Positions 15,564 through 46,409 of a DNA stretch of 64,000 nt are shown one piece after another. The DNA comes from Capnocytophaga periodontitidis. GTDB taxonomy: Bacteria; Bacteroidota; Bacteroidia; Flavobacteriales; Flavobacteriaceae. The notes below the pieces were generated by a model. That model searched no databases. It had not been told where the DNA came from and saw nothing but the letters and a program-made list of their open reading frames with translations. The first letter of the stretch is position 1. Each line of letters begins with the position of its first letter. The stretch spans positions 1-64,000 of the forward strand of contig NZ_JAEFDB010000006.1 of the NCBI RefSeq assembly GCF_016126015.1, in the 5' to 3' direction. Made by a program: the position numbers and the translations under genes.

Positions 15564-18080
15564 ATGAAAAAACACTTCTTACTGCTCTTTTTGTGTGCTT
15601 TTGCACCCTTTGGTTCTTATCTATGGGCTCAAACGCACGTATCGGGTAAAGTAATCGACGAAAATGGCCAACCTATAGCTTTTGCTAATGTGTTATTCCC
15701 TAAAACTACTATCGGCGCTTATACCGATGATGAAGGGCGTTTTTCTCTATACTCCGAAAAAAAACAAAGAGAATTAGAGGTATCATTCATAGGGTACACC
15801 ACCAAAAAAATTCATTTGGAAAAAGATAACACCAAAGGATTGGTAGTAGTACTCGTAGAAGGTGAACAGTTAGACGCAGTAACTATTGTGGCTAAACCTA
15901 AAAAGGCACTTTCTAAAAAAGAGAACCCTGCCTATACCGTTTTGCAAGGAATTTGGAAAAACAAAAAGAAACGCGGATTGCAAAATGCAACAGCTTATCA
16001 GTATAAAAAACATACTACTACCGAGTTAGGGGTGAACAACCTCGATACTGTCTTCCTCAAAAAAGCCTTAGGCAAAGAATACGATACTATTAGAAAAATC
16101 CTATCTGAGAAAAAATACAAAGAAACTTTCTCACTCCCTATGTACCTCACCGAAAAAATAGAAACGGTGTACGGTGACAATCAGTTGGGTAAAAAGCGTG
16201 TAGACATAGAAGCCGAACGTTCCCAAGGCATTGTGCAACAAGGTTTTGGTTTGGAACGTGTAAGCCAATCGTTTGACGAGTTTGAGATTTATGACAATAC
16301 TTATATGATACTCAACAAACCGTTCGTGAGTCCACTTTCCGAATTTGGCTATGGTGTGTATCTATATGTACTCAGCGATACGATTCAAAAAGATGAACGC
16401 CAATTCTATCGCATCAACTTCTTCCCTCGTGATGATCAAGATTTAGCTTTGCAAGGGCAATTTGATGTAGATACCAAAACCTTTATAGTGAGTGCTATAC
16501 AAATGCACACCACCCCTAAAACCAATATCAACTTAGTACGCCGACTCTCATTTGAAAAATACTTCACCATCGCCAACGATAGTGTTTACTTACCCGAACG
16601 CGAAATTCAAGAAGGTGATTTTACACTACTTACCAAAAAAGATGAAGAAAAAGGACTTTATGTAAAGAACTTTATCGATTATTCCGATATATTATTGAAC
16701 AAATCTAAAACTGCTGAATTTTACGACCAACAAGTAGTGAAAACAGCTAAAGATCAGTTTCATAAGGATGATACTTATTGGGATAACAATACCTTGGGAG
16801 GGGCTGACCTCACCAAAACTAAACTCCTAATTCGTGAGGTGGGAAGCAATAGGCGTATCAAAATGATAGGCGATGTAACCGATGTGGTAACTTCAGGTTA
16901 CATCCCCATTGGTAATTACCTACAATTTGGTAGATTCTGGCAAACTTTCTCAAGTAACAATGTTGAGGGCTTGCGTTTGCGTGCAGGATTCCGTTCCTTC
17001 ATCTCTACCGACGATCGCTTTCGTACCTATGTATATGGTGCTTATGGATTGAGAGACAAACAGTTTAAGTACGGATTCAGTGGTAAATACCTCCTTTCTC
17101 ACAGTCCACGCATCACCCTCGGAGCTGGTTATCAGAACGATAATTTGCAATTGGGTACCTTTGTAATGCACGACGATACTGAACTGAATTTCGAAAAAAC
17201 TACTAACTTCATCATTGCACGTGGTGAGAATTACTACCTCACCCGCAACAAAAAAATACAAGGGGTAATTAATTACGATATCATTCCTAACTTGCAATTT
17301 TCAATATTTGGTACTTACCAAAAACTCTCTTCCGCAAGTGAAGATAACTTCCTCATTGCCTACCAAAATCCTAAAACAGGTGATGTAATTCACGAGTACG
17401 ACAACTTCTATACAGGGCTACAACTCTCTTTCACCCCTTACCGAAAAGTATTTGGTTATGGTGTAGAACAACGTTATGGCAAAAAACTCTTCCCTTTGTA
17501 CACCCTCAAATATTCTAAAGGGGTAGATGGGGTGATAAACAGCAAGTTTGATTACGACAAAGTGCAAATGATGCTTTACAAACCCATTCCTCTCTTTGGT
17601 TATGGCATTTTCCACGCCAATATTGAAGCTGGAAAAGTATTTGGTACAGCACCACTTATTGCTTTAGCTCCCACCCCCGCTAACCAATCGTATTCATCAG
17701 CTCCTAACACCTTTGCACTTTTGGATTACTACGATTTTATCACTGATACCTATATCAATGGATATTTTGAACATCATTTCGATGGTTTCTTGTTCAATCG
17801 TATTCCTTTCTTACAAAAAACACGATTCAAAAGCTTGATATTCGGTCGATTTGCTTATGGAACGCTCTCCGACAAGAACAAAAACGCTAATATCACCAAT
17901 ATTGTATTTAATTCACCCGAAAAACTCTATTGGGAATACGGCTTTGGTATTGAGAACATAGGGTTAGGTAACTTTCGCTTTATACGAGTAGATTTCGTAT
18001 GGCGCAACGATTTCAATGATGTGAATGGGGTACGGAATCCTAAGTTTGGTGTACGGATTGGAATAGTACCATCATTTTAA
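15564..18080 (+). CDS. DUF5686 outer-membrane protein with carboxypeptidase-like regulatory domain
   Basis: An 838-residue protein: signal peptide (MKKHFLLLFLCAFAPFGSYLWAQ), a carboxypeptidase-D regulatory-like beta-sandwich over about residues 24-105 (VSGKVIDENGQPIAFANV, then FIGYTTKKI), and a long C-terminal part rich in alternating beta-strands ending 'FGVRIGIVPSF', as expected for an outer-membrane barrel. This matches the DUF5686 family of Bacteroidota. Function is unknown; the architecture recalls SusC-like receptors but there is no TonB plug signature. I choose ATG 15564 over an upstream TTG because the promoter overlaps the latter. The acyl-CoA reductase follows 26 nt downstream. Confidence 0.85.
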   Translation: MKKHFLLLFLCAFAPFGSYLWAQTHVSGKVIDENGQPIAFANVLFPKTTIGAYTDDEGRFSLYSEKKQRELEVSFIGYTTKKIHLEKDNTKGLVVVLVEGEQLDAVTIVAKPKKALSKKENPAYTVLQGIWKNKKKRGLQNATAYQYKKHTTTELGVNNLDTVFLKKALGKEYDTIRKILSEKKYKETFSLPMYLTEKIETVYGDNQLGKKRVDIEAERSQGIVQQGFGLERVSQSFDEFEIYDNTYMILNKPFVSPLSEFGYGVYLYVLSDTIQKDERQFYRINFFPRDDQDLALQGQFDVDTKTFIVSAIQMHTTPKTNINLVRRLSFEKYFTIANDSVYLPEREIQEGDFTLLTKKDEEKGLYVKNFIDYSDILLNKSKTAEFYDQQVVKTAKDQFHKDDTYWDNNTLGGADLTKTKLLIREVGSNRRIKMIGDVTDVVTSGYIPIGNYLQFGRFWQTFSSNNVEGLRLRAGFRSFISTDDRFRTYVYGAYGLRDKQFKYGFSGKYLLSHSPRITLGAGYQNDNLQLGTFVMHDDTELNFEKTTNFIIARGENYYLTRNKKIQGVINYDIIPNLQFSIFGTYQKLSSASEDNFLIAYQNPKTGDVIHEYDNFYTGLQLSFTPYRKVFGYGVEQRYGKKLFPLYTLKYSKGVDGVINSKFDYDKVQMMLYKPIPLFGYGIFHANIEAGKVFGTAPLIALAPTPANQSYSSAPNTFALLDYYDFITDTYINGYFEHHFDGFLFNRIPFLQKTRFKSLIFGRFAYGTLSDKNKNANITNIVFNSPEKLYWEYGFGIENIGLGNFRFIRVDFVWRNDFNDVNGVRNPKFGVRIGIVPSF

Positions 18081-31078: not shown

Positions 31079-31624
31079 TTATATATTGCTCTCATAATAA
31101 TAAGACTGTTCTATACCTTTAAAAATTACTTCATGGTCATTTACTTTATCAGTAAGGGCAGGTTGCAACAAAAAGCGCAATTCCAAATCGTTGATAGGGC
31201 TACGCTCCATTGCTTGGAGATAAGGAGCTTTATCTATCTGTTGCCAATTCACTACTTTACCTAAGCGTTTTTTGAGTATCAAGTCGATCCATATACGAGT
31301 AGCTCGTCCATTGCCTTCCATAAAAGGGTGGGCTATATTCATCTCTACATATTTGGCTACAATTTCTTCAAAAGTATTTTCAGGCATTTGGTCTATTACA
31401 GGCAGGATAGCATGCAAAAACATCGCATTGGCAAAACGAAAACCTCCTTTACTGATATTCAACTGACGTATTTTACCCGCAAAATCGTAAAGCCCCTCAA
31501 AAAGATAGCGATGTATCTCGCATAATCCTTTAGTGGTACCTACTTCTATCTGCTCTATAGTCCCACTCTCAAAAAGGCGATAGGCATTTTGCAAACTTTG
31601 TGCGTCGATTTCTTGAGTTTTCAT
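31079..31624 (-). CDS. Fic-family AMP transferase, class III-like
   Basis: A 181-residue Fic protein. The catalytic motif [12 protein letters not shown] has His99, Asn105, Gly106 and Arg107. The C-terminal helix ends QSYYYESNI: Ser174-xxx-Glu178 matches the autoinhibitory (S/T)xxxE(G/N) motif of class III Fic proteins, with Ser where Gly/Asn is usual. Fic enzymes add AMP to a target Tyr/Ser/Thr; class III members are switched on when the Glu moves away. I use ATG 31624, two nt past the GNAT stop, rather than TTG 31630. Confidence 0.88.
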
Positions 31625-31626
31625 CT

Positions 31627-32154
31627 TCAATTTTCTCTGTTCAATGTATATATTAAACTTGTATGCCTCTCTCCTATAAGCGGAAACAAGAAATCTTCAA
31701 GGGTATGATGGTAACGGAAGCCACATTTTTCAAGTACTCGCTGTGAGGTAACATTTTCCTTGTATGCGCCTGCCCATAGCTGGGTAAGGTGCAACTCTTC
31801 AAAAGCATATTGTATTACTCTTAGAGTAGCTTCAGTAACATAGCCCTTACCCCAAAAGTCTTCTCCAAGCCAATAGCCTATTTCGGCTTCATTTTCTCCT
31901 ATAGAAAGATTGCTCTCTCCTTGCAAAAGCAAGCCTATACTGCCAATAGGTGTGTTATTGGGCAGACAAATAGCAAAACTATGAGCCTTGCTAAGGACAA
32001 CCTCAATAATCTCTCGGCTCTCCTCCACACTTTTGTGAGGGTTCCAACCGCACCGCTTGCCTATAATAGGATTGTGTGCTTGTGTGTATAAGGCTTCGGC
32101 ATCGGTAATTTCCCAAGGGCGAAGCAAAAGGCGTGTTGTTTGAAGTGTTTCCAT
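31627..32154 (-). CDS. RimJ/RimL-type GNAT acetyltransferase
   Basis: A 175-residue GNAT. It starts with [19 protein letters not shown], has the acetyl-CoA-binding segment [26 protein letters not shown] (Q/RxxGxG/A-like) and ends [16 protein letters not shown]. Such enzymes acetylate protein N-termini or small molecules; the target is unknown. It stops two nt before the Fic start, implying co-translation. The gap upstream (32155-32210) has no clear TAnnTTTG box. Confidence 0.85.
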
Positions 32155-32581: not shown

Positions 32582-33415
32582 GGTATTTACCCTAACTACC
32601 AACAAATCTACAAAGAAATGGATAGTTATTTAGGTGAAAAAGGGTATAACTGACAATTGTTTGAGCGCGACAAAGAGACAATACGCGATGAATGACACTA
32701 TGATTTGAGATTTGAGGACGAAACTTATGCGCTATACGAAGATGAAAATCAGCTGATAGTAGATGACCTATTGGCAGCTTACATCTTGTTTATCGTGCAA
32801 AACCAAGACGGCAAACTACCTGAATGCGTGATTACAGAAACTCGTCAGCATACGGGTACAAACCATATAGCCGACTGTATAGAGGCTATAGAAGCACATA
32901 AAGAACTGCACATCACTTACTACGACTACCGCGATGAGCAAACCAAAGCCTATACGCTACAGCCTTACAAACTAAAGCATAAAGACTATAAATGGTATGT
33001 GTTGGCAGTAGATAAACAAGATAGCAGTGTGCCTTTTAAAGCCTTTGCCTTAGAGCGCGTGCGTTCGTTAGAAATAGGTGCTACCTTCCGACCTAATAAA
33101 GAATTAGACTTCTACAGTCCGTATTACAATGCTTTTGGGATGTTTACCGATGCCAAAGCCGAAAAGGTAGTGTTACAGTTTGATCACCGCGATGGTAACT
33201 ATCTCAAAGCCTCGCCTATTCACCACTCACAGCGAGTTATAGCTGAAACCGCAACACATATCACCTTTGAACTCTATGTAAAACCCACTCTCGACTTTAT
33301 TATGGAATTGATGAAACGCAGTTGGTCGCTTACTATATTAGAACCTACTCACTTGCGAGATACTTTTGTAAAATATTGGCAAGAAGCAGTGAAGAGAAAT
33401 TTGAAAGTGGATTAA
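32582..33415 (+). pseudogene. Decayed WYL-domain transcriptional regulator
   Basis: The C-terminal two thirds encode a WYL domain: ITYYDYRDEQTKAYTLQPYKL, KWYVLAVDK and the later PLDF-type helix region. Going upstream in the same frame one meets QLFERDKETIRDE, a typical HTH-linker segment of these regulators, but it is broken by TGA at 32651-32653 and at 32693-32695, and the N-terminal HTH start is missing. The only start for the intact part is a TTG at 32705. The fragment of 236 codons therefore looks like a remnant rather than a working gene, although a WYL-only protein cannot be excluded. Confidence 0.75.
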
Positions 33416-33440
33416 TCAAGTGGTTTATAAATCAAAAAAA

Positions 33441-33522: not shown

Positions 33523-33571
33523 AATGGCAAAGATAATATAGGAGGTGTATCATTTTGTGATACTATGATAA

Positions 33572-33609
33572 AAAAAAGAGTGCCAAAACAATTTTTGGCA
33601 CTCTTTTTT
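33572..33609. terminator. Bidirectional terminator
   Basis: AAAAAGAGTGCCAAAA pairs with TTTTGGCACTCTTTTTT around a very short loop. It serves the HNH-like gene on the minus strand (stop at 33630). A further hairpin GTATCA-TTTTG-TGATAC lies at 33547-33563. Confidence 0.85.
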
Positions 33610-33629: not shown

Positions 33630-34634
33630 TTATTTTGCTCCTTTCTTGCTGTTATAACTACTATGCATTAGTTGCAAATTCATTTTTGCATTAATTTTCT
33701 GAAATTCTTCTTCCAGCTCATCAAAATGAATTCTATTTCTAAAAGACTCATCATTTGCAATTATAGTAGATAATAGACGTACTGAATCTCTATCTAAATT
33801 TCCTCCTTTCACTCGTTTTCTAAATTCATCTGTGATAAGTGATAGTTGAGGAAAATCGTTTTTATCTAAAGACTCTAATAAGAGACTAATAGGCTCAATG
33901 TGATCGATAACAATTTCTCTAAGTTTACCTGATTTTACAACTAGAGTTACTAAATTATCAACTTCTGTTTTAGCAGAAACCTTTTCCTTATTTATAAAGA
34001 CCTGTCCATTACTATACTCAATTTCTAAGTCTTTTAAATCTTTGACTTTTTTAGCAGTAGTCCCTACAAAATAGATAATGTTATCTATTTGATGATTAAG
34101 TATTTTGTCAAAAGTTTTCTCGTGTCCTGTTTTATAAAAGTATTGTTTTATAAAACGAATAGGGAAAATAAGATGACCATTGTTATTATAGCGGTCTTGT
34201 GAAATTAGCCTACGAAATAGAGTGTCTCTAACAAAAGTAGAAGAGTAGTGTATGTAAGCACTATTGGTATTACATATTTTTTCCTCTTCTTCTACATCTT
34301 TTTTAATGTCATTTAAAGAAATAGTTGCAACTGAAACTTCAGCAGAAAGGCAGATTTTCTCTTCAATAAAATCAAGGTACTTCATAAACCCTGCACGGTA
34401 ATGATTCTTAGAAGTAACTTCTATAATCTCAAAAAGTTCTTCTCCTATTTCTCTCAATTCATCAAGAGCATCTAAACTTTTTGCTTTATAGATATTCTCT
34501 ACTAGCTCAAAAAGTTTATGCCTAAATTGTTTGTCAGCATTATTTACGTAATTAACATAACTATCAATGCTATTTACTCCATTTTTTGGCAAGAATTCTG
34601 TAAATTCTTTCTGTTTAAAAAAGGTATTATTCAT
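33630..34634 (-). CDS. HNH-like nuclease candidate, partner of the FtsK-like protein
   Basis: A 334-residue protein. Residues 9-35 (EFTEFLPKNGVNSIDSYVNY) and 77-92 (KNHYRAGFMKYLDFIE) resemble the SAM-like N-terminal helices of some restriction nucleases and integrases. The C-terminal half looks like a stretched HNH fold: DHIEPIS (Asp244-His245), then about 70 residues, then NLQLMHSSYNSKKGAK (Asn319, His324, Asn328). The pattern DHIxP + NLxLMxxxxNxxKG is that of McrA-type HNH enzymes, here with a long insertion. Its region 131-323 aligns with 379-572 of the upstream FtsK-like protein. Metal or DNA cleavage is inferred only. It has its own promoter. Confidence 0.65.
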   Translation of the reverse strand: MNNTFFKQKEFTEFLPKNGVNSIDSYVNYVNNADKQFRHKLFELVENIYKAKSLDALDELREIGEELFEIIEVTSKNHYRAGFMKYLDFIEEKICLSAEVSVATISLNDIKKDVEEEEKICNTNSAYIHYSSTFVRDTLFRRLISQDRYNNNGHLIFPIRFIKQYFYKTGHEKTFDKILNHQIDNIIYFVGTTAKKVKDLKDLEIEYSNGQVFINKEKVSAKTEVDNLVTLVVKSGKLREIVIDHIEPISLLLESLDKNDFPQLSLITDEFRKRVKGGNLDRDSVRLLSTIIANDESFRNRIHFDELEEEFQKINAKMNLQLMHSSYNSKKGAK

Positions 34635-34654: not shown

Positions 34655-34721
34655 TAACGCCCCAAAAGTACTAACTATTTTTCTTGCTACCAAATATAAA
34701 ATGTTAAAATTTGGGACGTTA
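34655..34721 (-). promoter_or_regulatory. Promoter of the HNH-like gene inside an inverted repeat
   Basis: On the minus strand TACTTTTG (34670-34663) has TTG (34693-34691) 20 nt upstream. Two 12-bp arms, TAACGCCCCAAA (34655-34666) and TTTGGGACGTTA (34710-34721), are inverted with one mismatch; one arm overlaps the -7 box, the other lies upstream of the -33 box. This looks like a two-site operator. Confidence 0.55.
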
Positions 34722-34732
34722 GGGTGATTTTT

Positions 34733-36451
34733 TTACAGCTTATTAATTATTTGAAATGCTTGTTGTGATAATAGCTTTTCTATTTCGGCAATGAGGACTG
34801 TAGGGTTGAGCTCCTTAGCAAGCTTTCTGTCGCGGAAGACATTCTCTGTAACTTCCTTTATTTCAATAGGTTCGGTGAGGGTTGAAGTATGCTCTCTAAG
34901 GGCGACTACTATCTTATTCAGTTGCGGATAGTTGTTATTGGGCAACGCATCAAAAATGGGAGAGATAATTCTCTTCGGATGAATAGCTATTGAAAAAGAG
35001 GGTGGATAATACTCACTGTGGTCGATTACAAAGGGGACTATTTCGCCATTGGGCATAGCACTGTACACCGCTTCTTGATTGATGAGCAACTGCCCGCTTT
35101 TCTTTAGAACATCTATATATGCTACATTACTGATTTTCTTAGGGGTATCGCTGATAAGATAGGTAGCCTCATTGCTGATGCGGAGAAGCATTTCTTCAAA
35201 AAGATCACGCTCCATACTGTTGAAAAAACGCCTTATCAAAAATAATGAAAACGCTACTTTCTCATCACTACTACACAATTGAGTGTATAGCAAGCTATTG
35301 ACTAAAGCGTCCTTAAACGTTTTAACGCTGAGCTTTTCATTAGCTTTGCGTTTGCCGTCGCGTTTTCTTCGCTTTAAAAGTTTGTTTATGTATTTGCCAA
35401 GTGCTTGTGCTCTATGCAAGTCGGCTACAATCATAGTTTTGCGCGAAATCTCTCCTTTTTTAAAGGCTACAATCTTTTCAAAGATAGTTTCTTCAAAAGA
35501 AGGGGCTAAAATCTCAGTCCGCTCATACCACAGAGTGTTATCGTGCTTATACTCAAGCATTGTATCAAATACCTTGTGAAAATCGACGACCTTTTTTACG
35601 GTTGCTTGCTGTTGCACATAATCGGCAAAACTACCGATGAGGTGGATGCCTTGTTTAAAACTCTCCTCTAAGGTGTCCCACAGTTCAGAATATTGCTGAT
35701 ACAATGCGTAAGCATCACTGATAAACACTATTATACGTGGCTCACAACTCTCACATTTCAAGCGTTTTTCATTTTCGGCAATTAGTGCTTGCAACACCTC
35801 TTGAGGTTCGGTAGCGGTAGTAAAAGCATAAGGTGCGATAACTTCTTGTAGAGCATTATCCGAGGTATTGTTACTATCTATCCATACCAACTGAACGTTT
35901 TTAGGCGTTTGCCAAAACAACAACGACAACAATACGAGTTGTAACCCCTTGTAGTTGTCGGCTGGGGTATCGTTTTTAATAGCCCAATGTGTTTCGGTAG
36001 CTAAATCAACGAGATGTAGGTTGTGATTATCGATTCCTAAGGCAATAGGCAAGGTCATAGCTGCATTTCTGAATTGTTGAGCGCAGAACAATTCGCTCAA
36101 ATGTACCCAACGAGTACTTTGATTAGGAATCGCGATGTGTACAAATTGTTTTTCTATGCGCTCACCTATAAAACTGTTGGGAGATAACACATAGCCTTTC
36201 GGAAAGGCTTTTTGCACTCTTTCAAAATCATTTTGCTGAAATAACGATTTCATTTTCACCGAGAAAGTGTTCTGCTTTCGTTCAATAGTAGGGTGAAAAG
36301 TCCCTTTGAAAGGCAGTTCAAGCAATTGGAGCGTTTCCTTAATATAACGCTCTTGTTCAACAATTTCGCGTTCTAAAAGCGCGCACATAGTCATTTTTGA
36401 CTGACCGAGCAGTGCCACTGGCAACTGCATTAATGATTTTTGTTTTTCCAT
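34733..36451 (-). CDS. FtsK-like pseudo-ATPase with lost Walker motifs
   Basis: A 572-residue intact frame that follows the FtsK/SpoIIIE motor order. Seen: IAIPNQSTRWVHLSEL (107-121), RNAAMTLPIALGIDN (128-142, FtsK has SPLPLALGKD), VDLATETHWAI (148-158), LLSLLFWQTPKNVQLVWIDS (174-193), ALIAENEKRLK (222-232), PRIIVFISDAYAL (238-250) and QGIHLIG (267-273). Where FtsK has GxTGSGKS, this has IKNDTPADNYKG with no Gly-Lys-Ser; the Walker B Asp-Glu is Asp246-Ala247. It should therefore not hydrolyse ATP. Residues 379-572 resemble the neighbouring HNH-like protein but stop before its last HNH motif. Role unknown; defence or plasmid/phage functions are possible. Confidence 0.65.
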   Translation of the reverse strand: MEKQKSLMQLPVALLGQSKMTMCALLEREIVEQERYIKETLQLLELPFKGTFHPTIERKQNTFSVKMKSLFQQNDFERVQKAFPKGYVLSPNSFIGERIEKQFVHIAIPNQSTRWVHLSELFCAQQFRNAAMTLPIALGIDNHNLHLVDLATETHWAIKNDTPADNYKGLQLVLLSLLFWQTPKNVQLVWIDSNNTSDNALQEVIAPYAFTTATEPQEVLQALIAENEKRLKCESCEPRIIVFISDAYALYQQYSELWDTLEESFKQGIHLIGSFADYVQQQATVKKVVDFHKVFDTMLEYKHDNTLWYERTEILAPSFEETIFEKIVAFKKGEISRKTMIVADLHRAQALGKYINKLLKRRKRDGKRKANEKLSVKTFKDALVNSLLYTQLCSSDEKVAFSLFLIRRFFNSMERDLFEEMLLRISNEATYLISDTPKKISNVAYIDVLKKSGQLLINQEAVYSAMPNGEIVPFVIDHSEYYPPSFSIAIHPKRIISPIFDALPNNNYPQLNKIVVALREHTSTLTEPIEIKEVTENVFRDRKLAKELNPTVLIAEIEKLLSQQAFQIINKL

Positions 36452-36688: not shown

Positions 36689-38152
36689 CTACTTCTTGTA
36701 CAATTCCAGAAACTCGCGGACGGTTTCAAAGTCGTCAAAATGGTGTTTTACGCCTTTAATTTCTTGGTAAGTTTCGTGTCCCTTACCGGCGATGAGGATG
36801 ATATCGCCTTTTTGGGCGTTCTTACAAACGGATTGTATTGCCTGACGACGGTCGGTGATGGTTTGTACTTTGTGGAAGTGTTGTGGCTGTACCCCTTGTT
36901 CCATTTCGGCAAGAATCGTCTCAGGTTCTTCGTTGCGAGGATTGTCGGAAGTGAGGATGACATTATCGCTGAGGGTTGTAGCGATATCAGCCATTATAGG
37001 GCGTTTGCCTTTGTCGCGATTGCCCCCACAACCCACTACAGTAGTGAGTGTCTCGTTGTGAGTGCGTATATCGTTGATGGTTTTTAGAACGTTTTCAAGC
37101 GCATCGGGGGTATGAGCGTAATCTACGATGGTAATCACTCCCGTAGCCGATACAGCGTATTGGAAACGCCCAGCCACGGGTTCTATAGCACTGATGAGTG
37201 TAAGCGCCTCAAGTTCGTCAATACCTAAAAGTGTAGCTGCTGCATATACCGCTAAAAGGTTATAGGCATTGAACTCCCCTATGAGTTTTGTCCATACCTC
37301 GTGCTGATTGATGCGCAACAACAAGCCGTCAAATCTGCTTTCAATGATATATGCTTTATAATCTGAATAGGTTTTGAGAGCGTAAGTTTTCTTTTGGGCT
37401 TTGGTGTTTTGTAACATAAAAACCCCATTTTTATCATCGTTGTTCACTAAGGCAAAAGCGGTAGCTGGCAACGCATCAAAGAAACGCTTTTTCACATCGC
37501 GATAGGCAGCGAAGGTTTTGTGATAGTCAAGGTGATCGCGGGTGAGGTTAGTGAAAATACCACCTGCAAATTGTAGTCCTTCGGTGCGATGCTGGTCGAT
37601 ACCGTGCGAACTGACCTCCATAAAGCAGTATTTCACCCCTTGTTGTACCATTAAGTGTAGATAATGATTTAGTTGAAGAGGGTCGGGGGTAGTGTGAGTA
37701 GCTTCAAAACGCTGGTCGTCTACGTATACTGCTACGGTAGAGAGCAAACCTGCTTTTTGTCCTGCTTTTCTAAACAATTGGTAGAGAAGCGTTGCAATAG
37801 TAGTCTTTCCGTTAGTGCCTGTAACGCCTACTAAGGTAAGTTTTTCGGAAGGATTGCCATAGAAGTTAGCCGCGATAAGAGCTAAGGCGCTATGAGTATT
37901 AGGAACTACTATATAGCTTACATCAGGCAAGGGCTGTTGAGGTAATTGCTCACATACAATAGCAGTAGCACCACTGCGAATAGCTTGGTCTATATATTCG
38001 TGTCCGTTAGATTGAGTGCCAGTGATAGCAACAAACATACTTCCTTTTTCTACCTTGCGAGAGTCGAAACAAACGGAAGTAATAGGTTTGTCTTCTTCAT
38101 AAAGAGAAGCCTTTATAGAGATGTTTTTAAGTAATGTTTTTAAATTAGTCAT
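36689..38152 (-). CDS. murE: UDP-MurNAc-L-Ala-D-Glu--2,6-diaminopimelate ligase
   Basis: A 487-residue Mur ligase of normal length. P-loop GVTGTNGKTT at residues 109-118. The C-terminal domain has DNPRNEEP near residue 400, the DNPR motif that selects meso-diaminopimelate as third residue. It works in the cytoplasm on peptidoglycan precursors. In most relatives it follows ftsI directly; here a 236-residue gene of unknown function and an 82-bp repeat lie between. A strong terminator follows, and mraY/murD do not come after it. Confidence 0.95.
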   Translation of the reverse strand: MTNLKTLLKNISIKASLYEEDKPITSVCFDSRKVEKGSMFVAITGTQSNGHEYIDQAIRSGATAIVCEQLPQQPLPDVSYIVVPNTHSALALIAANFYGNPSEKLTLVGVTGTNGKTTIATLLYQLFRKAGQKAGLLSTVAVYVDDQRFEATHTTPDPLQLNHYLHLMVQQGVKYCFMEVSSHGIDQHRTEGLQFAGGIFTNLTRDHLDYHKTFAAYRDVKKRFFDALPATAFALVNNDDKNGVFMLQNTKAQKKTYALKTYSDYKAYIIESRFDGLLLRINQHEVWTKLIGEFNAYNLLAVYAAATLLGIDELEALTLISAIEPVAGRFQYAVSATGVITIVDYAHTPDALENVLKTINDIRTHNETLTTVVGCGGNRDKGKRPIMADIATTLSDNVILTSDNPRNEEPETILAEMEQGVQPQHFHKVQTITDRRQAIQSVCKNAQKGDIILIAGKGHETYQEIKGVKHHFDDFETVREFLELYKK

Positions 38153-38199
38153 TAGTCAATTTATCAATTTGTTAATTATAAGGAGTATAGCTAGGGTAT

Positions 38200-38910
38200 T
38201 TATTGGGCTTTCATTTCGTTAATAAATTCGTCCCAGCCGTATTTTAAGTATTTCTTATTGGGAATAAACTCTCCTGCCCCTATATCTAAATCACCTGAAC
38301 AAGGTACGCGATAATATGCCCAACTTACTTGCTGTGTTTTCTGTGTTTGTTTGCTTGTCCACGTTCCAATAAAAGCATTGTTGAAATAAGGGTCAGCTCC
38401 TTCATAGAAATCGTTATACTCTAAATTTCCTTTGTTAGAAATAGCCCAACAAAGTAATACTTTCCCCTTAAAAATACCTGTTGCAGAGAGGTTTTCATAT
38501 TCATCAAAAAGGAAGTTGCCTTCAGCAATTCCTTCTTCCTTAAAGTTGGTTTCTTCAGTATTTACAAGTGTTTTTAGTGTGTTTATAACAATAGTCCCTC
38601 TAAACTTACGGGTGTTTTTGGCTACACGCGTCCAGCCTTCTACTTGGTATAATGATGGTTGTGTATTGTCTTTTTTAATACTTGTAAACTGAACTACCAA
38701 TCGCTTTTTGTGAATGCCTATTGCGCCTAAAAATTTAGTTTCTTTATATAAAAGAACAGGGGTAAAGTCCATTTTAGCAATAGGGAGATTGCAAGGTTTT
38801 ACTTTAGTGTAAAGACTTGTTATTGTTTGCTCTAAATCTTTGTAAGAACAAGGCTGCGCTACAGCTAATGAGGTGATGAAAACGAATGTTGTGATAAAGA
38901 ATATTTTCAT
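38200..38910 (-). CDS. Secreted protein of unknown function inserted in the dcw cluster
   Basis: A 236-residue protein with a signal peptide (MKIFFITTFVFITSLAVAQ). The rest is beta-rich with repeated Lys/Thr segments (GIHKKRLVVQF, GTWTSKQTQKTQQVSW) and four Cys; I recognise no domain. It sits between ftsI and murE, beside the 82-bp repeat, so it is probably an insertion into the ancestral gene order rather than a cell-division gene. Confidence 0.65.
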   Translation of the reverse strand: MKIFFITTFVFITSLAVAQPCSYKDLEQTITSLYTKVKPCNLPIAKMDFTPVLLYKETKFLGAIGIHKKRLVVQFTSIKKDNTQPSLYQVEGWTRVAKNTRKFRGTIVINTLKTLVNTEETNFKEEGIAEGNFLFDEYENLSATGIFKGKVLLCWAISNKGNLEYNDFYEGADPYFNNAFIGTWTSKQTQKTQQVSWAYYRVPCSGDLDIGAGEFIPNKKYLKYGWDEFINEMKAQ

Positions 38911-38933
38911 ATTATCATTTTAAGAGTTCAAGA

Positions 38934-39015
38934 GGCTGTTCAAAAAGTTTTTCTTTAGGGGCGTTTGCAAAACGCCCTTACATAACACACTCTAAAAGTA
39001 ATTGATTATCAAAGT
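38934..39015. repeat. 82-bp dispersed repeat, copy B
   Basis: Same orientation as copy A at 33441-33522, sharing the GGGCGTTT-GCA-AAACGCCC hairpin (38959-38977) and the TAAAAGTAATTGATTATCA tail. It is followed by degenerate TTTGCTAATTGGCTAATTG units (39030-39062) that run into the 3' end of ftsI. Confidence 0.8.
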
Positions 39016-39050
39016 GTAGCGACGCAATCATTTGCTAATTGGCTAATTGA

Positions 39051-41069
39051 CTAATTAGTTAATTCTCCACACTGTAAAACTACTATGGTATTGTGCGCTA
39101 CTTTGGAGCCTTTGGCAACCGATTGGCTACTTACTTTGCCTTCGCCCGAAAATTTCACTCGTAAACCCATATTTTCGAGTAAGGCAATGGCATCCATTAC
39201 ATTCATACCCGTAAGATCGGGCATTACTGTTTTGTATTTTGCAGCCTTAGCATAGTAATCTTCATAGTTTTTAGTAGTTTTTCCCGATACATTTTCCACA
39301 TCTTCTACGGTGTCCATCAACAGTGAATTAGTATAGATTTTATGAGCTATACTTTTGAATACAGGTCCCGATACATCGGCACCGTAAATCCCCACACTGC
39401 GGTCGGGCTCGTGAATGACTACTATACACGAGTATTTTGGGTTGTCTACCGGAAAAAATCCTGCAAACGAGGATATATAACTCAGTTTGCTTGCATCCGC
39501 ATTGGCGTAGTTTTTACGAGCAGTTCCTGTTTTGCCTGCCATCGAAAAATCGGGGGAATAAAGTCGGTGTCCTGATCCATACGAACGTCTCACTACATCG
39601 GCAAGCATTCCCTTAGCTTTATCGGCAGTTTGTTTAGAGCAAATTTTTCCGTTGATAATCTCTACATTAAACTTTTCTATTGCTTTGTTCCATTCTTTTA
39701 CTTCCTTGATCATTCGGGGTTTTACCATCACTCCCCCATTGGCAATAGCGTTGTAGAAAGCCAAGCTCTGCAAAGGGGTAATTTTTACGGCATAACCTAT
39801 GGCCATAGATTCGAGGGTCACCCCACTCCATAGCTTGTCGCGTGGTGTAGGAATAAAAGGAGCTCCTTCACCTAAGATGGGTAAGCCTAACTGCTGATTG
39901 AGATTCATTTTTAGCAATTGAGAGGTAAAATCCGAAGGGTTTTTCGCAAATAGTGAGTGTACTAACTCGGTCATCCCCACGTTTGAGGATACCGAAAAGG
40001 CTTTGTTTAAGCTAATGCGCCCTGTGAAGTGATGTTGTGAATCTTGAAAAGTCTTATCGTAGTACTGTTGTTTTCCGTCTTTTATATCCACTACATAAGT
40101 GGTATCGATATTGCGGGTTTCCATAGCAGCAACAACAGTCATCAATTTGAATACCGACCCAGGTTCGTGAGCTTCGCCTATAGCAAAGTTATAACGCTCG
40201 GCATAGGTGTCGTTTTTTTTGTTTAACTCAAGATTGGAAATAGCTTTTATCTCGCCTGTACTCACTTCCATTACAATCACGCAACCGTGCTGAGCTTTAT
40301 ATTTCTTCAGTTGGGTAAGTAAGGCGTGGTGTGCAATATCTTGTATGTTGATATTGATAGTAGAAACTACATCATAACCATCTTTAGGTTCTATAATATC
40401 AAACCCACTGGCGAGTTTCCACTGTCCTTTGGCGATTTTCTGTTCTAAGCGTCGTCCTTTAGTACCCAAAAGGTAATTGGCATAAGCACCTTCAAGCCCT
40501 ACACGGGTAGTGTAACCAGTTTCATCGGTACGCGCATAACCAATACTGCGGTGAGCAATCCCTCCTAACGGATATTCGCGTTTGATGTTTTTCTCTATAA
40601 TGATTCCCCCTTTGTAGGGACCTTTGTCAAACAGTGGAAATTTTTTGATACGTGCATATTCACTATAGCCTAAATTACTTGCGATAAGTAAGTATCTGTT
40701 CTTTAAATTGCGTTCTTTTTTAAGTAGATTCAAATAGTAGTTACTTGGACGACCAAACATCTTTGAAAGGGAATCGCTCAACGGCTTTACATATTTGTTG
40801 AAATTGGCTTTAGAAGGGGCTATCCCGTCCCAACGAATATCGTAACGAGTTACCGAGGTAGCCAATAAACTCCCATCATCGGAATACAAATTGCCTTGAC
40901 TGGGAATAATATCAGCCTCACGCAAGGTAGTTTCGTCTACTTTGGCGCGATATTCATCACCTTCTATTTGTATTTTGATGAGTTTTACGGCTATTATTAT
41001 AATCATCAGCAGGATTACCAATGCTACAAAGTAAGTGCGTGCGGTTATTTTTTTGTCGCTTTTTTCCAA
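39051..41069 (-). CDS. ftsI: Cell-division transpeptidase FtsI (PBP3-like) with PASTA domain
   Basis: A 672-residue class B penicillin-binding protein. Membrane segment at about 12-32; a dimerisation domain; transpeptidase motifs SVFK (Ser305-Lys308), SSN (361-363) and KTG (513-515). The C-terminus from about 605 is a PASTA domain (MPDLTGMNVMDAIALLENMGLRV). It cross-links septal peptidoglycan. It follows the ftsL-like gene by 23 nt. The stop region is made of the TAATTAG micro-repeat found at other gene borders. Confidence 0.95.
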   Translation of the reverse strand: MEKSDKKITARTYFVALVILLMIIIIAVKLIKIQIEGDEYRAKVDETTLREADIIPSQGNLYSDDGSLLATSVTRYDIRWDGIAPSKANFNKYVKPLSDSLSKMFGRPSNYYLNLLKKERNLKNRYLLIASNLGYSEYARIKKFPLFDKGPYKGGIIIEKNIKREYPLGGIAHRSIGYARTDETGYTTRVGLEGAYANYLLGTKGRRLEQKIAKGQWKLASGFDIIEPKDGYDVVSTININIQDIAHHALLTQLKKYKAQHGCVIVMEVSTGEIKAISNLELNKKNDTYAERYNFAIGEAHEPGSVFKLMTVVAAMETRNIDTTYVVDIKDGKQQYYDKTFQDSQHHFTGRISLNKAFSVSSNVGMTELVHSLFAKNPSDFTSQLLKMNLNQQLGLPILGEGAPFIPTPRDKLWSGVTLESMAIGYAVKITPLQSLAFYNAIANGGVMVKPRMIKEVKEWNKAIEKFNVEIINGKICSKQTADKAKGMLADVVRRSYGSGHRLYSPDFSMAGKTGTARKNYANADASKLSYISSFAGFFPVDNPKYSCIVVIHEPDRSVGIYGADVSGPVFKSIAHKIYTNSLLMDTVEDVENVSGKTTKNYEDYYAKAAKYKTVMPDLTGMNVMDAIALLENMGLRVKFSGEGKVSSQSVAKGSKVAHNTIVVLQCGELTN

Positions 41070-41092
41070 TGCTTTACCTCCTTATTGTTTTG

Positions 41093-41419
41093 TTATTCTT
41101 CTACAATTACTTTAATTTTTTGTGGTGGTTTCTCAGGCTGCTTGAGTCCTTTAGATTCTAATTGTTCTAACAGCGACGACTCTAATCGCACCTTCTGTAA
41201 GCGCGAACGCACATCTACAAACTGACTTTTGAGTTCATTAACCTCTTCATTCAGTTTAGCAATTTGGTGTACTTTGGCATCTACTCGCTGTGAACTGGTA
41301 ATCATTATGATAATCAGCACAAACAGAAAGCCAACAAACATCCAGCTTTTAAAAGCGTCTTTGCCTACAAAAAACTTTCCGCGTAGTATATTTTTAATTT
41401 CGTCGGTAGCTCTTCCCAT
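41093..41419 (-). CDS. FtsL-like division protein
   Basis: A 108-residue small membrane protein: about 24 cytoplasmic residues, one transmembrane helix near 27-43 (MFVGFLFVLIIIMITSS), then a coiled coil (IAKLNEEVNELKSQFVDVRSRLQKV). This topology and the place between rsmH and ftsI identify it as the FtsL-type partner that recruits FtsI/FtsW to the septum. Sequence conservation of the family is low, so position carries the call. Confidence 0.85.
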   Translation of the reverse strand: MGRATDEIKNILRGKFFVGKDAFKSWMFVGFLFVLIIIMITSSQRVDAKVHQIAKLNEEVNELKSQFVDVRSRLQKVRLESSLLEQLESKGLKQPEKPPQKIKVIVEE

Positions 41420-41441
41420 TTTTTAGTTATAAAATTAAGAA

Positions 41442-42356
41442 TTAAGAGTTTATGCGTTCAGCAATGCGAAGTTTAGCACTGCGAGCTCGGTTATTCATTG
41501 CAATCTCACTATCGGTAGGAGTGATAAGTCCGCCTACTTTTTTAAACGGAACTGACACATTGCCAAACCAATCTTTTTCGGGAGTACCTTCTAATTGTCC
41601 GTCGCGTATAAAGCGTTTCACGGCACGGTCTTCAAGCGAGTGATAGCTGATGAGACTGATGCGCCCCCCAGGTTTCACCACATCGGGCAGTTGTAACAAA
41701 AACGATTCCAGTGCCTCCATTTCGCCGTTCACCTCTATGCGTATCGCTTGATAGATTTGCGCTAACACCTTGTTTTCTTTGAACTTGGGTAAAAAACTCT
41801 TTACAGCCTCTTGTAACTCACTGCCTAACTGAATAGGCTTCTGTGCTCTATAATTGATAATCGCTCGAGCGATAGCTTTGGCGTTTTTCAGCTCACCATA
41901 GTTGAAAAACAATCGACTTAAATCTTCTTCATCATATTCATTTACAATTTCTTTAGCCGAAATTGCTGCATTTTGGTTCATACGCATATCCAAAGTACCT
42001 TCAAAACGAGTAGAAAAGCCGCGTTCGGCAACGTCAAATTGATGAGAAGAAACCCCAAAATCACCTAAAACCCCGTCTACTTGTGTAACACCATAGAAAC
42101 GCAAGTATTGTCGCAAATATTTGAAATTCTGCTGAATGAGTGTAAAACGGTCATCGGCTATAGCATTGGCAGCTGCATCAGTATCTTGATCGAAAGCAAA
42201 AAGTCGCCCCTCATTGCCTAAATGTTTGAGGATTTCACGCGAATGACCGCCGCCGCCAAAAGTGATATCTACATAAGTGCCATTGGGCTTAATTGCCAAA
42301 CCTTCAACACTTTGTTGCAACAAAACGGGAATGTGATAAGAGGAATTATCGTTCAT
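41442..42356 (-). CDS. rsmH: 16S rRNA (cytosine-1402-N4)-methyltransferase
   Basis: A 304-residue RsmH/MraW. HIPVLLQQSVEGL at the start, the SAM-binding DITFGGGGHSREIL (residues 30-43), and GVLGDFGVSSHQFDVAERGFS in the middle are all family signatures. It methylates C1402 of 16S rRNA. It opens the dcw cluster on the minus strand; no mraZ is present upstream, where a divergent promoter pair leads to a nitroreductase. Confidence 0.96.
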   Translation of the reverse strand: MNDNSSYHIPVLLQQSVEGLAIKPNGTYVDITFGGGGHSREILKHLGNEGRLFAFDQDTDAAANAIADDRFTLIQQNFKYLRQYLRFYGVTQVDGVLGDFGVSSHQFDVAERGFSTRFEGTLDMRMNQNAAISAKEIVNEYDEEDLSRLFFNYGELKNAKAIARAIINYRAQKPIQLGSELQEAVKSFLPKFKENKVLAQIYQAIRIEVNGEMEALESFLLQLPDVVKPGGRISLISYHSLEDRAVKRFIRDGQLEGTPEKDWFGNVSVPFKKVGGLITPTDSEIAMNNRARSAKLRIAERINS

Positions 42357-43286: not shown

Positions 43287-44111
43287 ATGAAACTTAGGAA
43301 CATAATTTTTACTTTTTTAGTTACTATTAACTTGGTAAATGCCAAAACTGAACCTGTAACTATTCAGGGAGCTGTAGGAACACTTCGCGGAGTGGTTACC
43401 ACTCCTGATACTGTGAAAAAGTCTCAGAAAATCCCTACTGTGATTATCTTCCACGGACTGACTAGCAATAAAGACAAAAAGCTATATGCTACTTTGGCAG
43501 ATAGCTTAGCAACACACGGTATTGCTTCAGTACGCTTTGACTTTAACGCACACGGCGAAAGTGAAGGAGATTTTAAGAAAATGTCGTTAGATAATGAGTT
43601 AGAAGATGCACGGCGCATAATGGCATTTACTAAAAGACTCTCTTTCGTAGGTAAGATAGGCTTGATAGGACACTCGCAAGGAGGGGCTATAGCGATGCTT
43701 TTGAGTGCAGAATTAGGAAAGAAAAACGTTAAAGCATTAGGCTTGTTAGCTCCTGCTTCTACAATTCACGACATACTATCACAAGGGGTACTGTTCGATG
43801 CCACTTTCGACCCATTGAATGTACCTGAGGAGCTTTCCTTTTTTGGAGGGAAAGTAACTGTGGGGAAAGACTATATTCTCTCAGCACAACGCTGTAAACT
43901 CATTGAGAAAGCGAGTACCTACAAAGGCAAGGTGCTGGTAATTCACGGTACGGGTGATCGGATGATATCTTATACTTATAGCGAGAATTTGCCTTTTTTC
44001 TACAAGCATTGTAAGGTAAGTCTTATAGAAAGAGGGGACCATTTGTTTACTGCCAAAGAAGCGCAAACAGCAAAGATAATGACACAATTTATGCTGAAAA
44101 ACTTGAGATAA
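43287..44111 (+). CDS. Secreted serine hydrolase, S33/feruloyl-esterase-like
   Basis: A 274-residue protein with a signal peptide (ends NLVNA, about 19). The alpha/beta-hydrolase core has IFHGLTSNKDKK (oxyanion loop), GHSQGG (nucleophile elbow, Ser near 130), GTGDRMIS (acid Asp) and ERGDHLF (His). The pattern 'VRFDFNAHGESEGDF' is typical of bacterial cinnamoyl or acetyl ester hydrolases. The substrate is not known. It is followed by a 143-nt gap without a clear terminator. Confidence 0.8.
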   Translation: MKLRNIIFTFLVTINLVNAKTEPVTIQGAVGTLRGVVTTPDTVKKSQKIPTVIIFHGLTSNKDKKLYATLADSLATHGIASVRFDFNAHGESEGDFKKMSLDNELEDARRIMAFTKRLSFVGKIGLIGHSQGGAIAMLLSAELGKKNVKALGLLAPASTIHDILSQGVLFDATFDPLNVPEELSFFGGKVTVGKDYILSAQRCKLIEKASTYKGKVLVIHGTGDRMISYTYSENLPFFYKHCKVSLIERGDHLFTAKEAQTAKIMTQFMLKNLR

Positions 44112-44254
44112 TGAATCGATTAGTCGATTTGTCAATTTGCCGATGTGCCCCAATTTACTAATGACTTAATAACTAATTTATCAAATGAAAATATATAAAA
44201 TTACCAATATTGTAAGAAATGGAGATATAGTGTAAAGGTAAAATATAAGTGGCA

Positions 44255-44734
44255 ATGAAAGGAATCATCTTAACAGATAACACTAATTACTTGGGTTTTG
44301 ATAGAAATATTTCTCTATGGGGGCAAAAATCTTTTCAATATCCTATAGTAGATGATTATTTTGTAGATGCAAAATATCTTGAGCGTATTCTGGAAGAAAA
44401 GGAAGGTCTTTTTAAGAATAATCTTCATCTATTATACTTCAGTGAAGATAGTTGTGAACATCCCAATTTTAAACAAATAGGTGTGGATTGTGGCTATTTA
44501 TATGAGCCAATTGATGATTTCTATATAGGTTTTTCAATCATATACAATGAGATACTAAGAATTGACAATTCTTTTTGTGTAGAATATAAAAAACGACTTA
44601 ATGAATATTCTCTTTTTTCCTCCGCTGTGCAGGCAAAATCTTTTTTACAAGAAAGAGCTTTTTTCTGTGATAAGTATAAGTTTGAAAATGCTTTTCAGAG
44701 ATTGAGTGTTGTGAATATTTATATATACAAATAG
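44255..44734 (+). CDS. Hypothetical protein, first of an ATGA-coupled cluster
   Basis: A 159-residue protein of no recognised family. It is acidic and aromatic-rich (DCGYLYEPIDDFYIGFSIIYNEIL) with a C-terminal helical part, a composition common in immunity proteins. I take ATG 44255 instead of GTG 44249. The next gene starts 3 nt after its stop. AT content is higher than in the core genes around it, which suggests transfer. Confidence 0.6.
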   Translation: MKGIILTDNTNYLGFDRNISLWGQKSFQYPIVDDYFVDAKYLERILEEKEGLFKNNLHLLYFSEDSCEHPNFKQIGVDCGYLYEPIDDFYIGFSIIYNEILRIDNSFCVEYKKRLNEYSLFSSAVQAKSFLQERAFFCDKYKFENAFQRLSVVNIYIYK

Positions 44735-44737
44735 ATT

Positions 44738-45319
44738 ATGGCTTATTTTAGAATTGTCTTTAAAGAGGATAATAAGTTGTGGCAGAAGTATTTTACTTTT
44801 GCTTATCGTTTTGTGATAGGGGATAATGAGGATGTGAAATTTCCTGAAAACTACACGCTTCAGTCTTCGGATGTGTTGAAGATACAAGCACTTAATCATC
44901 AAGGAGAGGTGGTGAAAGATATTTCTTTCTTTAAGAAGGAAAAGATGTCTCCTTTTCAAAGGACTAAGAGTCATATTTTGGTTAGGGAGGATATCTTTCA
45001 GGAAGAATTATTTAAGAATTTAAAAGGAATTACTTTTTTGACGGTAGTTCCTGATGGTAATTTTCCTTATAAATACAAAATGCTTTCTTTTACAAATGTG
45101 TTGGATTGTGTTGATTGGCAACATTCTATAAGAAAACAATTCGACTTTTTTAGTAAACTGGTATTGGATACTTCAAAAATACCAGAAGGCTTAAATGGTT
45201 TTTATCTGTCTAATTGGAATCAGTTTGGTTATTATACTTGTATTGTGAATGAGAAACTCAAAGAAGCCCTTTTACAATTAGCTGAACTACCTAAATTTTT
45301 AGATTTTGCTGAATTATGA
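44738..45319 (+). CDS. Hypothetical protein, possible Imm11-type immunity protein
   Basis: A 193-residue protein. Its end, YYTCIVNEKLKEALLQLAELPKFLDF, resembles the closing 'ivSekLkeaLeklgltGleF' of the Imm11/DUF1629 immunity family, and the body MAYFRIVFKEDNK...KFPENYTL is consistent with such small acidic proteins. The stop overlaps the next start by four nt (ATGA), so translation is coupled. No toxin gene is next to it in the window. Confidence 0.55.
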   Translation: MAYFRIVFKEDNKLWQKYFTFAYRFVIGDNEDVKFPENYTLQSSDVLKIQALNHQGEVVKDISFFKKEKMSPFQRTKSHILVREDIFQEELFKNLKGITFLTVVPDGNFPYKYKMLSFTNVLDCVDWQHSIRKQFDFFSKLVLDTSKIPEGLNGFYLSNWNQFGYYTCIVNEKLKEALLQLAELPKFLDFAEL

Positions 45320-45942
45320 TTAAAAACATTTATGAACCCGATAATGAAGATATACTTTTTTGGTTAGCCCATAATGAAAAATGGCCTGACCCCGATTGGG
45401 ATCTTTATGTGGTGAATGGAAAAAATGATGATTTGGTTTTCCAATTAGCTAATGACAACGTGTGCCCTGAACAAGAGTTCTTCCTGCATTGTCTGTATTA
45501 CTTCGTGGGTGAGGTGTATATCTCAAATGATATGGAGAAGTATCAGGAACGTATAGATAATTTATTTAGCAAGACTGCTCTTTTGCCTTCTGTGATGCAA
45601 TGGAAAGACAAAACAGAGCTTTTATTGGCTGGAAAAATTACTTTTGATAGCGATTTTTGGCTGGATTATCTCTTTTATCAAGACATTCAAAAAAGAAATA
45701 TAGAAGATTTATTATATGAACCCAATTCTGTAGAAAAATTAAGAGAATATGCCTTACAATTGTATCCAAAAGGCTTTTCTAAAGAGGAAATATATCAGAT
45801 ATTCCTTAAATCCGACATTGAATTGCAGAATGATAAAACAGAAGAATCATATATAGATACATTGGAAGATGTAATGGATATGATAGTAGGTTGGTATCCA
45901 AGTAGAAATATTGATTTTGAAAATGAAGTAAAGAAAATATGA
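45316..45942 (+). CDS. Hypothetical acidic protein
   Basis: A 208-residue acidic, helical protein (DEDILFWLAHNEKWPDPDWDLYVV...). It has no signal peptide and no family I recognise. The short repeated segment pattern at 5-70 recalls helical repeat immunity proteins. It overlaps both neighbours by ATGA junctions, which places it in a tight four-gene unit. Confidence 0.55.
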   Translation: MIKNIYEPDNEDILFWLAHNEKWPDPDWDLYVVNGKNDDLVFQLANDNVCPEQEFFLHCLYYFVGEVYISNDMEKYQERIDNLFSKTALLPSVMQWKDKTELLLAGKITFDSDFWLDYLFYQDIQKRNIEDLLYEPNSVEKLREYALQLYPKGFSKEEIYQIFLKSDIELQNDKTEESYIDTLEDVMDMIVGWYPSRNIDFENEVKKI

Positions 45943-46409
45943 ACCTATTCATTAAAAATATAAAACACAATGCTTATATTGTAGTAATTTGCTATATAAT
46001 ATTAGTTTGTTTCTACAATGTATTCAATAATATAAGGAAACCAGGAATGCCTGAGCTACATTCCTTTTCATTAGAGGGGATACAAGCCCTTGTAGGAACT
46101 TTTGCTATACCTATGATGCTACTTTTTGAATCGTATAGACACGGTGATTGGGTACTAAATACCATCAACAAACTCTTAATTATTGCTCCATTCCTATTTT
46201 ATATACTCCTCCCTATTGTTCTGAAAAAGATAACTTCTTTCAATTTCAAAAACTATTTTCTCACCATAGATGTTATTACATTTGTGATATACGGACTTAT
46301 AATGCTGCCTACTTTAGCTGTGGGTTTATCGGCTGTTATAGCTGTACCAGCTTATATTTTTATGCTGCATTATCGAAATCAACAGTATAAGAAAGGACTA
46401 TTTAATTGA
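45939..46409 (+). CDS. Small four-helix membrane protein
   Basis: A 156-residue protein with four probable transmembrane helices: about 13-30, 46-62, 80-95 and 105-145. It has no recognised motif. It begins with an ATGA overlap to the gene before, so it is the last member of the coupled cluster 44255-46409. A membrane immunity protein would fit but is not shown. Confidence 0.55.
   Translation: MNLFIKNIKHNAYIVVICYIILVCFYNVFNNIRKPGMPELHSFSLEGIQALVGTFAIPMMLLFESYRHGDWVLNTINKLLIIAPFLFYILLPIVLKKITSFNFKNYFLTIDVITFVIYGLIMLPTLAVGLSAVIAVPAYIFMLHYRNQQYKKGLFN

Follow-up and report, generated by a model that had tools for sequence, protein, structure and literature searches.

Can a protein of the FtsK motor class that lacks the usual ATP loop be kept by a bacterium, and what would such a protein do beside a nuclease-like gene? 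This question is raised by a 64,000-nucleotide stretch of Capnocytophaga periodontitidis DNA (the window), in which an earlier note had read one open frame as an FtsK motor with both Walker motifs lost and had proposed that it works with the adjacent nuclease-like protein. We compared this gene and its surroundings with other genomes, which carry G numbers below; G000 is the genome of the window. A P-loop-less FtsK derivative does lie beside an HNH-like gene in the window, and together with a palindrome and a convergent WYL gene the two form a cassette (Table 1).

Table 1. Cassette features by position in the window, with the evidence for each
Feature	Positions	Strand	Evidence
WYL regulator gene, broken	32582..33416 (open piece 32705-33415)	plus	96.5% DNA identity to intact G314 gene; Pfam
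P1 palindrome TATCACAAAATGATA, orphan copy, candidate WYL operator	33548..33562	minus	sequence pattern
Inverted repeat then T run, probable terminator of HNH-like gene	33572..33609	minus	read by inspection; absent from terminator scan list
HNH-like nuclease gene, 334 codons, 29.0% GC	33630..34634	minus	invariant motif residues; relative in type I R-M operon
P2, conserved promoter-like spacer before effector gene	34658..34698	minus	identity to G314 spacers; promoter reading by eye
Pseudo-FtsK (motor) gene, 572 codons, ATG start	34733..36451	minus	open frame; Pfam FtsK_SpoIIIE above cut-off; homologues; dN/dS
C-terminal domain, residues ~375-572, HNH-homologous, motif residues lost	34736..35329	minus	BLASTP, motor profile, alignment
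FtsK-derived part, residues 26-229	35765..36376	minus	Pfam 118-223; PDB profile match 95-230; hhalign 26-218
P-loop position, residues 160-167, NDTPADNY in place of GxxGxGKS	35951..35974	minus	ungapped alignment; lost in 5/5 homologues

The FtsK-derived gene and its lost P-loop

The frame without a stop described in the earlier note, which named no strand, is present on the minus strand. The FtsK profile that had been proposed as a check (PF01580, FtsK_SpoIIIE) gives the protein 26.2 bits, above its cut-off of 24 (E 6.3e-6, residues 118-223; 27.7 bits in a genome-wide search), covering only the first half of the profile (positions 2-109 of 221). Pfam returned no other family at E up to 1, and the protein is without the membrane and gamma (DNA-reading) domains of full FtsK. 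Searched against the PDB at E up to 1, a profile of the pseudo-FtsK family gave three matches, all of them FtsK (best 2iuu, E 7.2e-8, residues 95-230), and hhalign aligned residues 26-218 with FtsK (E 6e-9), a stretch that takes in part of the FtsK alpha domain. These matches point robustly to FtsK for residues ~101-229 and more weakly for the alpha-domain-like residues 26-100.

The loss of the P-loop is confirmed. In the PDB profile match and in the hhalign alignment the P-loop block of FtsK aligns without a gap, GATGQGKS of the genome's own FtsK falling on NDTPADNY at residues 160-167; Gly-Lys-Ser/Thr is absent where the earlier note had placed the lost motif. The loss is common to all five homologues, and a P-loop shifted to another place is ruled out, as none of the five holds GK[ST] anywhere in its sequence. 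GxxGxGK[ST] was intact at all 54 FtsK loci checked, which represent 49 distinct genes by place and include all 20 Capnocytophaga genomes. The site has invariants of its own within the family, namely Asp-x-Pro followed by Lys and Gln-Leu (D161, P163, K168, Q171 and L172).

The second half of the motor gave a different result. The FtsK order that had been followed as far as GIHLI holds for residues ~101-229 and, more weakly, for 26-100; from Walker B (IIVFISD) to GIHLI it fits FtsK by eye, with scores within the shuffle range. When residues ~221-345 were compared with the FtsK second half, as a profile from Walker B to the motor end, 230 to 744 of 2000 shuffles reached the real scores, which puts all five motors within the shuffle range. 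A block test of this half scored 18.3 against 23.4 for the best of 40 shuffles. One pairwise FtsK alignment passes residue 229, that of the G304 motor (33-266 in its longer-start numbering, E 2.7e-6). If the strands correspond, the equivalent of the FtsK Asp-Glu pair is Ser-Asp in G000 and G308, Asn-Glu in G306 and G314, and Asn-Asp in G304, and the Asp-Ala once assigned to Walker B is one residue out of register. The statement on Walker B is thus unproven.

Codon comparisons agree with the earlier view that the protein is kept. Six of the ten motor pairs were saturated in dS, and the four others gave dN/dS of 0.14-0.21. The two pairs with the lowest dS gave 0.14 (G306-G314) and 0.16 (G304-G308); the other two measurable pairs gave 0.19 and 0.21, at dS above 2. 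By this measure the P-loop-less FtsK derivative is under purifying selection.

Homologues and origin

Motor homologues over most of the length were found in five of 20 Capnocytophaga genomes, the window copy included, with identities to that copy of 43% (G306), 42% (G314), 37% (G304) and 36% (G308, where the match covers residues 133-569). Their frames run to 535-579 codons in four genomes and 451 codons in the fifth. As a query against 299 family genomes the motor matched 289; beyond G000 the best E was 1.9e-10, and the matches listed fall in frames of FtsK length. The full motor was found in one genus only (one of the 299 family genomes), and a motor scan of genome contigs gave no further relatives.

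Two results bear on whether the motor could be a relict of the cellular FtsK. The window genome encodes its own complete FtsK elsewhere (an 811-codon frame with GATGQGKS), and one separate FtsK match occurs in each of the 20 Capnocytophaga genomes. When the motors were ranked against a set of 26 FtsK proteins, only two of them from Capnocytophaga, none had a protein of this genus as its nearest match: the genome's own FtsK came 21st for G000, 26th for G306, 7th for G314 and 26th for G304, and the G308 motor had a single, insignificant match (E 0.74). A viral or plasmid origin was set aside: neither the motor nor the HNH-like protein has relatives in phage records or IMG/VR, the HNH-like protein has none in plasmid records, and the only plasmid match of the motor is a Legionella plasmid FtsK. 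PADLOC left the HNH-like protein without a match and gave the motor only a weak DrmC hit (E 0.0039).

The motor tail and the HNH-like neighbour

Beyond the earlier note, there is homology between the motor tail and the neighbouring HNH-like protein. Residues ~375-572 of the motor are matched by the C-terminal half of the neighbouring protein (BLASTP E 2e-8), and the motor-family profile finds the HNH genes of G304 and G000 at E 3.1e-24 and 3.3e-22. In the neighbour, D244, H245, N328 and K331 are invariant in all five homologues, among them a distant one from G755, a genome of another family in the same class. The proline after Asp-His is missing in G308, and the histidine of LQLMH is replaced by Gln in G308 and by Asn in G755. 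The pattern of Asp244-His245, Asn328 and Lys331 is one that we take to be the HNH nuclease motif. Read from the alignment, the Asp-His and the terminal H/N..K motif are absent from all five motor tails.

The neighbour is best called a candidate HNH protein on the strength of this motif and of the G755 relative, Pfam scores aside. The full protein had no Pfam match above cut-off, four fragments of it compared with the Pfam HNH families reached at best E 0.12 (the C-terminal fragment, below cut-off), and the HNH profiles gave nothing useful against the PDB. The G755 relative was found with a joint profile of motor tails and HNH proteins (E 7.2e-23). Its gene is flanked by hsdS and hsdR of a type I R-M operon, and the 19-kb stretch that holds it also carries genes for Abi_2 and reverse transcriptase. 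The locus as a whole (L117, 480-13351) reads as a defence island, in which a YgjP-type protease accompanies these genes.

The HNH profile is rare in wider sampling. It matched one of 397 family genomes (G000 itself) and two of 395 class genomes (G000 and G755), and a scan of genome contigs returned three loci, all on Capnocytophaga contigs among those already compared. With an E limit of 0.01, the joint tail profile matched ten of 395 phylum genomes; G000 and G755 were clear, and the other eight lay at E 3.7e-4 to 0.0085.

The WYL gene and the palindrome

At the far end of the cassette, and convergent with it, stands a WYL gene in all five motor genomes. The WYL and WCX domains of its product score above the Pfam cut-off; Pfam reported no HTH family, and a PDB search gave no match at E up to 0.01. 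Among the 20 genomes a close form of this gene (at least 63% identity to the window piece) occurs in exactly the five that carry the motor, the next best match reaching at most 35%, and some WYL match is present in 18. The chance of such an overlap is 1 in 15504, a figure that overstates independence because the genomes are related. In the window itself the gene is broken, with two in-frame stops and its 5' end lost.

The palindrome TATCACNAAATGATA has six exact copies in the 20 genomes (~54.4 Mb), all in these cassettes: one each in G000, G306 and G308, three in G314 and none in the 15 cassette-free genomes. Base composition predicts 1.9 copies and a reversed control gave one; as the pattern was derived from these six sites, the new information is the absence of other copies. 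The palindrome begins 62, 60 and 59 nt upstream of the motor start codon in G306, G314 and G308. In G304 a degenerate form, with two mismatches in one arm and one more in the spacer, starts 60 nt ahead of that codon, so that the spacing is 59-62 nt in the four genomes with an intact WYL gene. In the window the palindrome is missing before the motor gene, and the orphan copy lies beyond the HNH-like gene. Within the window alone, a search with up to two mismatches found two sites where 1.13 were expected (27 of 100 shuffles), no rarer than chance. The broken WYL gene and the missing motor-promoter palindrome coincide in this one case only. We regard the palindrome as a candidate operator for the WYL protein.

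Cassette sites and exchange of effector genes

The cassette occupies two sites. In G000, G306 and G314 it lies beside murE; in G304 and G308 it is flanked by SprT/aminopeptidase-type genes on one side and ileS on the other (gene names by eye). No motor follows murE at seven other murE loci, those of G304 and G308 included.

The earlier note had asked whether the neighbour is always the same HNH-like gene. It is not: a homologous HNH gene adjoins the motor in four of the five genomes, and in the fifth, G314, the motor, which shares 91% identity with its G306 counterpart, adjoins a different HNH-like gene. The spacer before the window HNH gene is closely matched by two spacers of G314 (90.6% over 127 bp and 96% over 77 bp), behind which stand x359 and x296 (HNH-like), whose products have no clear relation to the window HNH protein. 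The x296 protein matches an endonuclease VII PHROG (E 2.2e-13), PDB 4h9d (E 0.0012) and, below cut-off, Pfam HNH_4 (18.4 bits); its 8.7 bits with the neighbour's HNH profile are too low to call the two related. Database searches with x359 gave nothing useful. Full-length P2 occurs in G000 and G314 only among the 20 genomes, with short partial matches in G000, G299, G306 and G309. G314 also repeats the terminator-palindrome block (92%). Between its HNH-like and WYL genes (L050, 5487-7081), G314 carries a truncated second P-loop-less FtsK-like fragment together with a 359-aa protein.

Gene trees were compared for the four genomes with both genes (G000, G304, G306 and G308), the G000 row for WYL being the open piece. 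The HNH tree groups G000 with G304 and G306 with G308, whereas the motor and WYL trees group G000 with G306 and G304 with G308; the conflict amounts to delta logL of 138, 91 and 107, and both alternative trees were rejected each time. Between G306 and G314, dS is 0.32 for the motor and 0.35 for WYL against 1.30 for murE, which points to transfer. The effector genes have 26.6-29.7% GC, against 36.0-41.4% for the motors and 37.9% for the window. By sequence comparison, then, the effector genes change independently of the motor and WYL genes.

Three further features of the surroundings were noted. The dcw cluster rsmH-ftsL-ftsI-murE (window 36689-42356, names by eye) is broken after murE, as it is in several relatives; G305 (L121) keeps next after murE a gene that reads, by eye, as mraY. 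AT-rich plus-strand ORFs of 161, 193 and 208 aa at 44249-45942 (30.4% GC over 44001-46000) are missing from the equivalent position in G314 (L050, ~16098-16107), which marks an indel close to the dcw genes. A Fic/DOC domain protein (PF02661) is encoded near the cassette at 31079-31630.

Discussion

The reading that we prefer, and to which we give not quite an even chance, is that of a modular cassette against invaders, regulated by WYL, whose dead motor serves as an ATP-independent adaptor for an exchangeable nuclease. The WYL protein would repress the motor gene through the palindrome and would let go of it upon infection or DNA stress. The dead motor would pump no DNA but may retain the FtsK docking surface for DNA or for an FtsK-type ring, whether the host's or an invader's, while its HNH-like tail could keep the live nuclease in place, position it or restrain it. 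Once the state of the DNA or of FtsK changes, the nuclease would be released or aligned, and the invading DNA would be cut. Three observations raise the odds of a role of the defence type: the WYL gene, the palindrome and the location of the HNH relative in a type I R-M operon. The swapping of effectors speaks against a motor-nuclease interface that has co-evolved tightly.

The main rival is a toxin-antitoxin or immunity pair, which we consider unlikely. The HNH-like gene would be a toxic nuclease and the pseudo-FtsK its antidote, with the tail occluding the nuclease and the FtsK part giving stability or binding DNA. The motor is encoded first and the nuclease second in all four genomes with the pair; a dead homologue of the toxin domain is fused to the partner, near-identical spacers precede different effectors, and the cargo is AT-rich, exchangeable and toxin-like. 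Antidotes usually co-evolve with their toxin, but the motor does not track its effector, as seen in G314 against G306 and in the conflict between the HNH and motor trees. In addition, a repressor at the motor-promoter palindrome would starve the cell of antidote, while the nuclease might go on being expressed from the candidate promoter P2 (a reading by eye).

We think it improbable that the HNH-like gene encodes a selfish endonuclease, or one of the homing type, whose N-terminal domain is recombinase-like, the cassette persisting by moving and the pseudo-FtsK acting as a mobility helper. The two insertion sites, the low motor and WYL dS between G306 and G314, and the weak resemblance of the G755 relative to Phage_int_SAM_1 (below cut-off, E 0.0018) fit this picture; the near absence of relatives from the viral and plasmid records speaks against it, and the private palindrome with its linked WYL gene fits regulation better. 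That the gene is a functionless, decaying FtsK derivative, as the broken WYL gene, the truncated G314 fragment and the weak FtsK similarity might suggest, is very improbable in view of the long open frames in all five genomes, the dN/dS of the two lowest-dS pairs and the palindrome spacing kept in four of the five.

The proposed anti-invader cassette can be set beside several known systems. HerA/FtsK capture is nearest in idea and DUF4297-HerA nearest in parts. In the former, HerA/FtsK domains, some with the cellular FtsK alpha domain, are recruited into anti-invader loci, and one class pairs a motor with an inactive and an active nuclease domain (PMC10853773). At the sequence level the cassette resembles this class, with HNH-like domains instead of REases. 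The class usually includes an Orc/Cdc6 ATPase and REase-type nucleases, and its motors are discussed as active (PMC10853773), whereas the cassette motor is without a P-loop, its dead HNH-like domain is fused to it, and the effectors change behind conserved spacers. Since the motor is without the ATPase feature, we class the cassette as a variant rather than a member. DUF4297-HerA also combines an FtsK/HerA-class ring protein with a nuclease, but its HerA hydrolyses ATP (PMC11291478), unlike the P-loop-less cassette motor with its HNH-like nuclease. Some CoCoNuT loci are described as placing an FtsK-like ATPase beside an inactivated REase-like protein (PMC11090510).

Kept domains with lost Walker motifs also have parallels in other systems. 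The type VII secretion proteins EccC/EssC keep such FtsK-type domains (PMC11154593), and in YueA-like ATPases only the middle of three HerA/FtsK domains is active (PMC3482391); these are tandem domains of a secretion ATPase that retains an active domain, whereas the pseudo-FtsK stands alone with an HNH-like tail. The inactive STAND NTPases of BREX, e.g. BrxB, are P-loop NTPases without Walker motifs that, like the pseudo-FtsK, are kept in a defence-type setting (PMC12839542); their fold is STAND/Orc, not FtsK, and by eye no BREX genes were seen in the cassette loci. On the regulatory side, BrxR is reported to bind inverted repeats whose arms are separated by a 5-bp spacer (PMC9122601), a spacing that the cassette palindrome shares, and CapW to act as a repressor by binding to CBASS promoters at palindromes of 19-24 bp (PMC9122588). 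In both cases, as in the cassette, a WYL gene lies beside a defence-type operon with a promoter palindrome of ~20 bp, which in the cassette is a candidate site. The capW gene lies upstream on the opposite strand (PMC9122588), whereas the cassette WYL gene is downstream and convergent. We found no description of this cassette in open-licence papers.

A bolder version of the preferred reading, to which we assign a low probability, is a pseudo-motor immune platform. A constant, WYL-controlled adaptor would receive nucleases plugged in by recombination at the conserved spacers, with the dead tail as a universal dock, and may read the state of genuine FtsK-type rings, whether host FtsK or the motor of a plasmid or phage, by co-assembling with them.

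DNA pumping is the usual explanation for FtsK/HerA-class proteins in defence loci. If the anti-invader function that we infer for the cassette is true, a member kept without the usual ATP loop would separate docking from pumping, and would offer a compact test of the immune role of the motor fold. The palindrome may in turn serve as a short DNA tag for locating further modules in Capnocytophaga strains.
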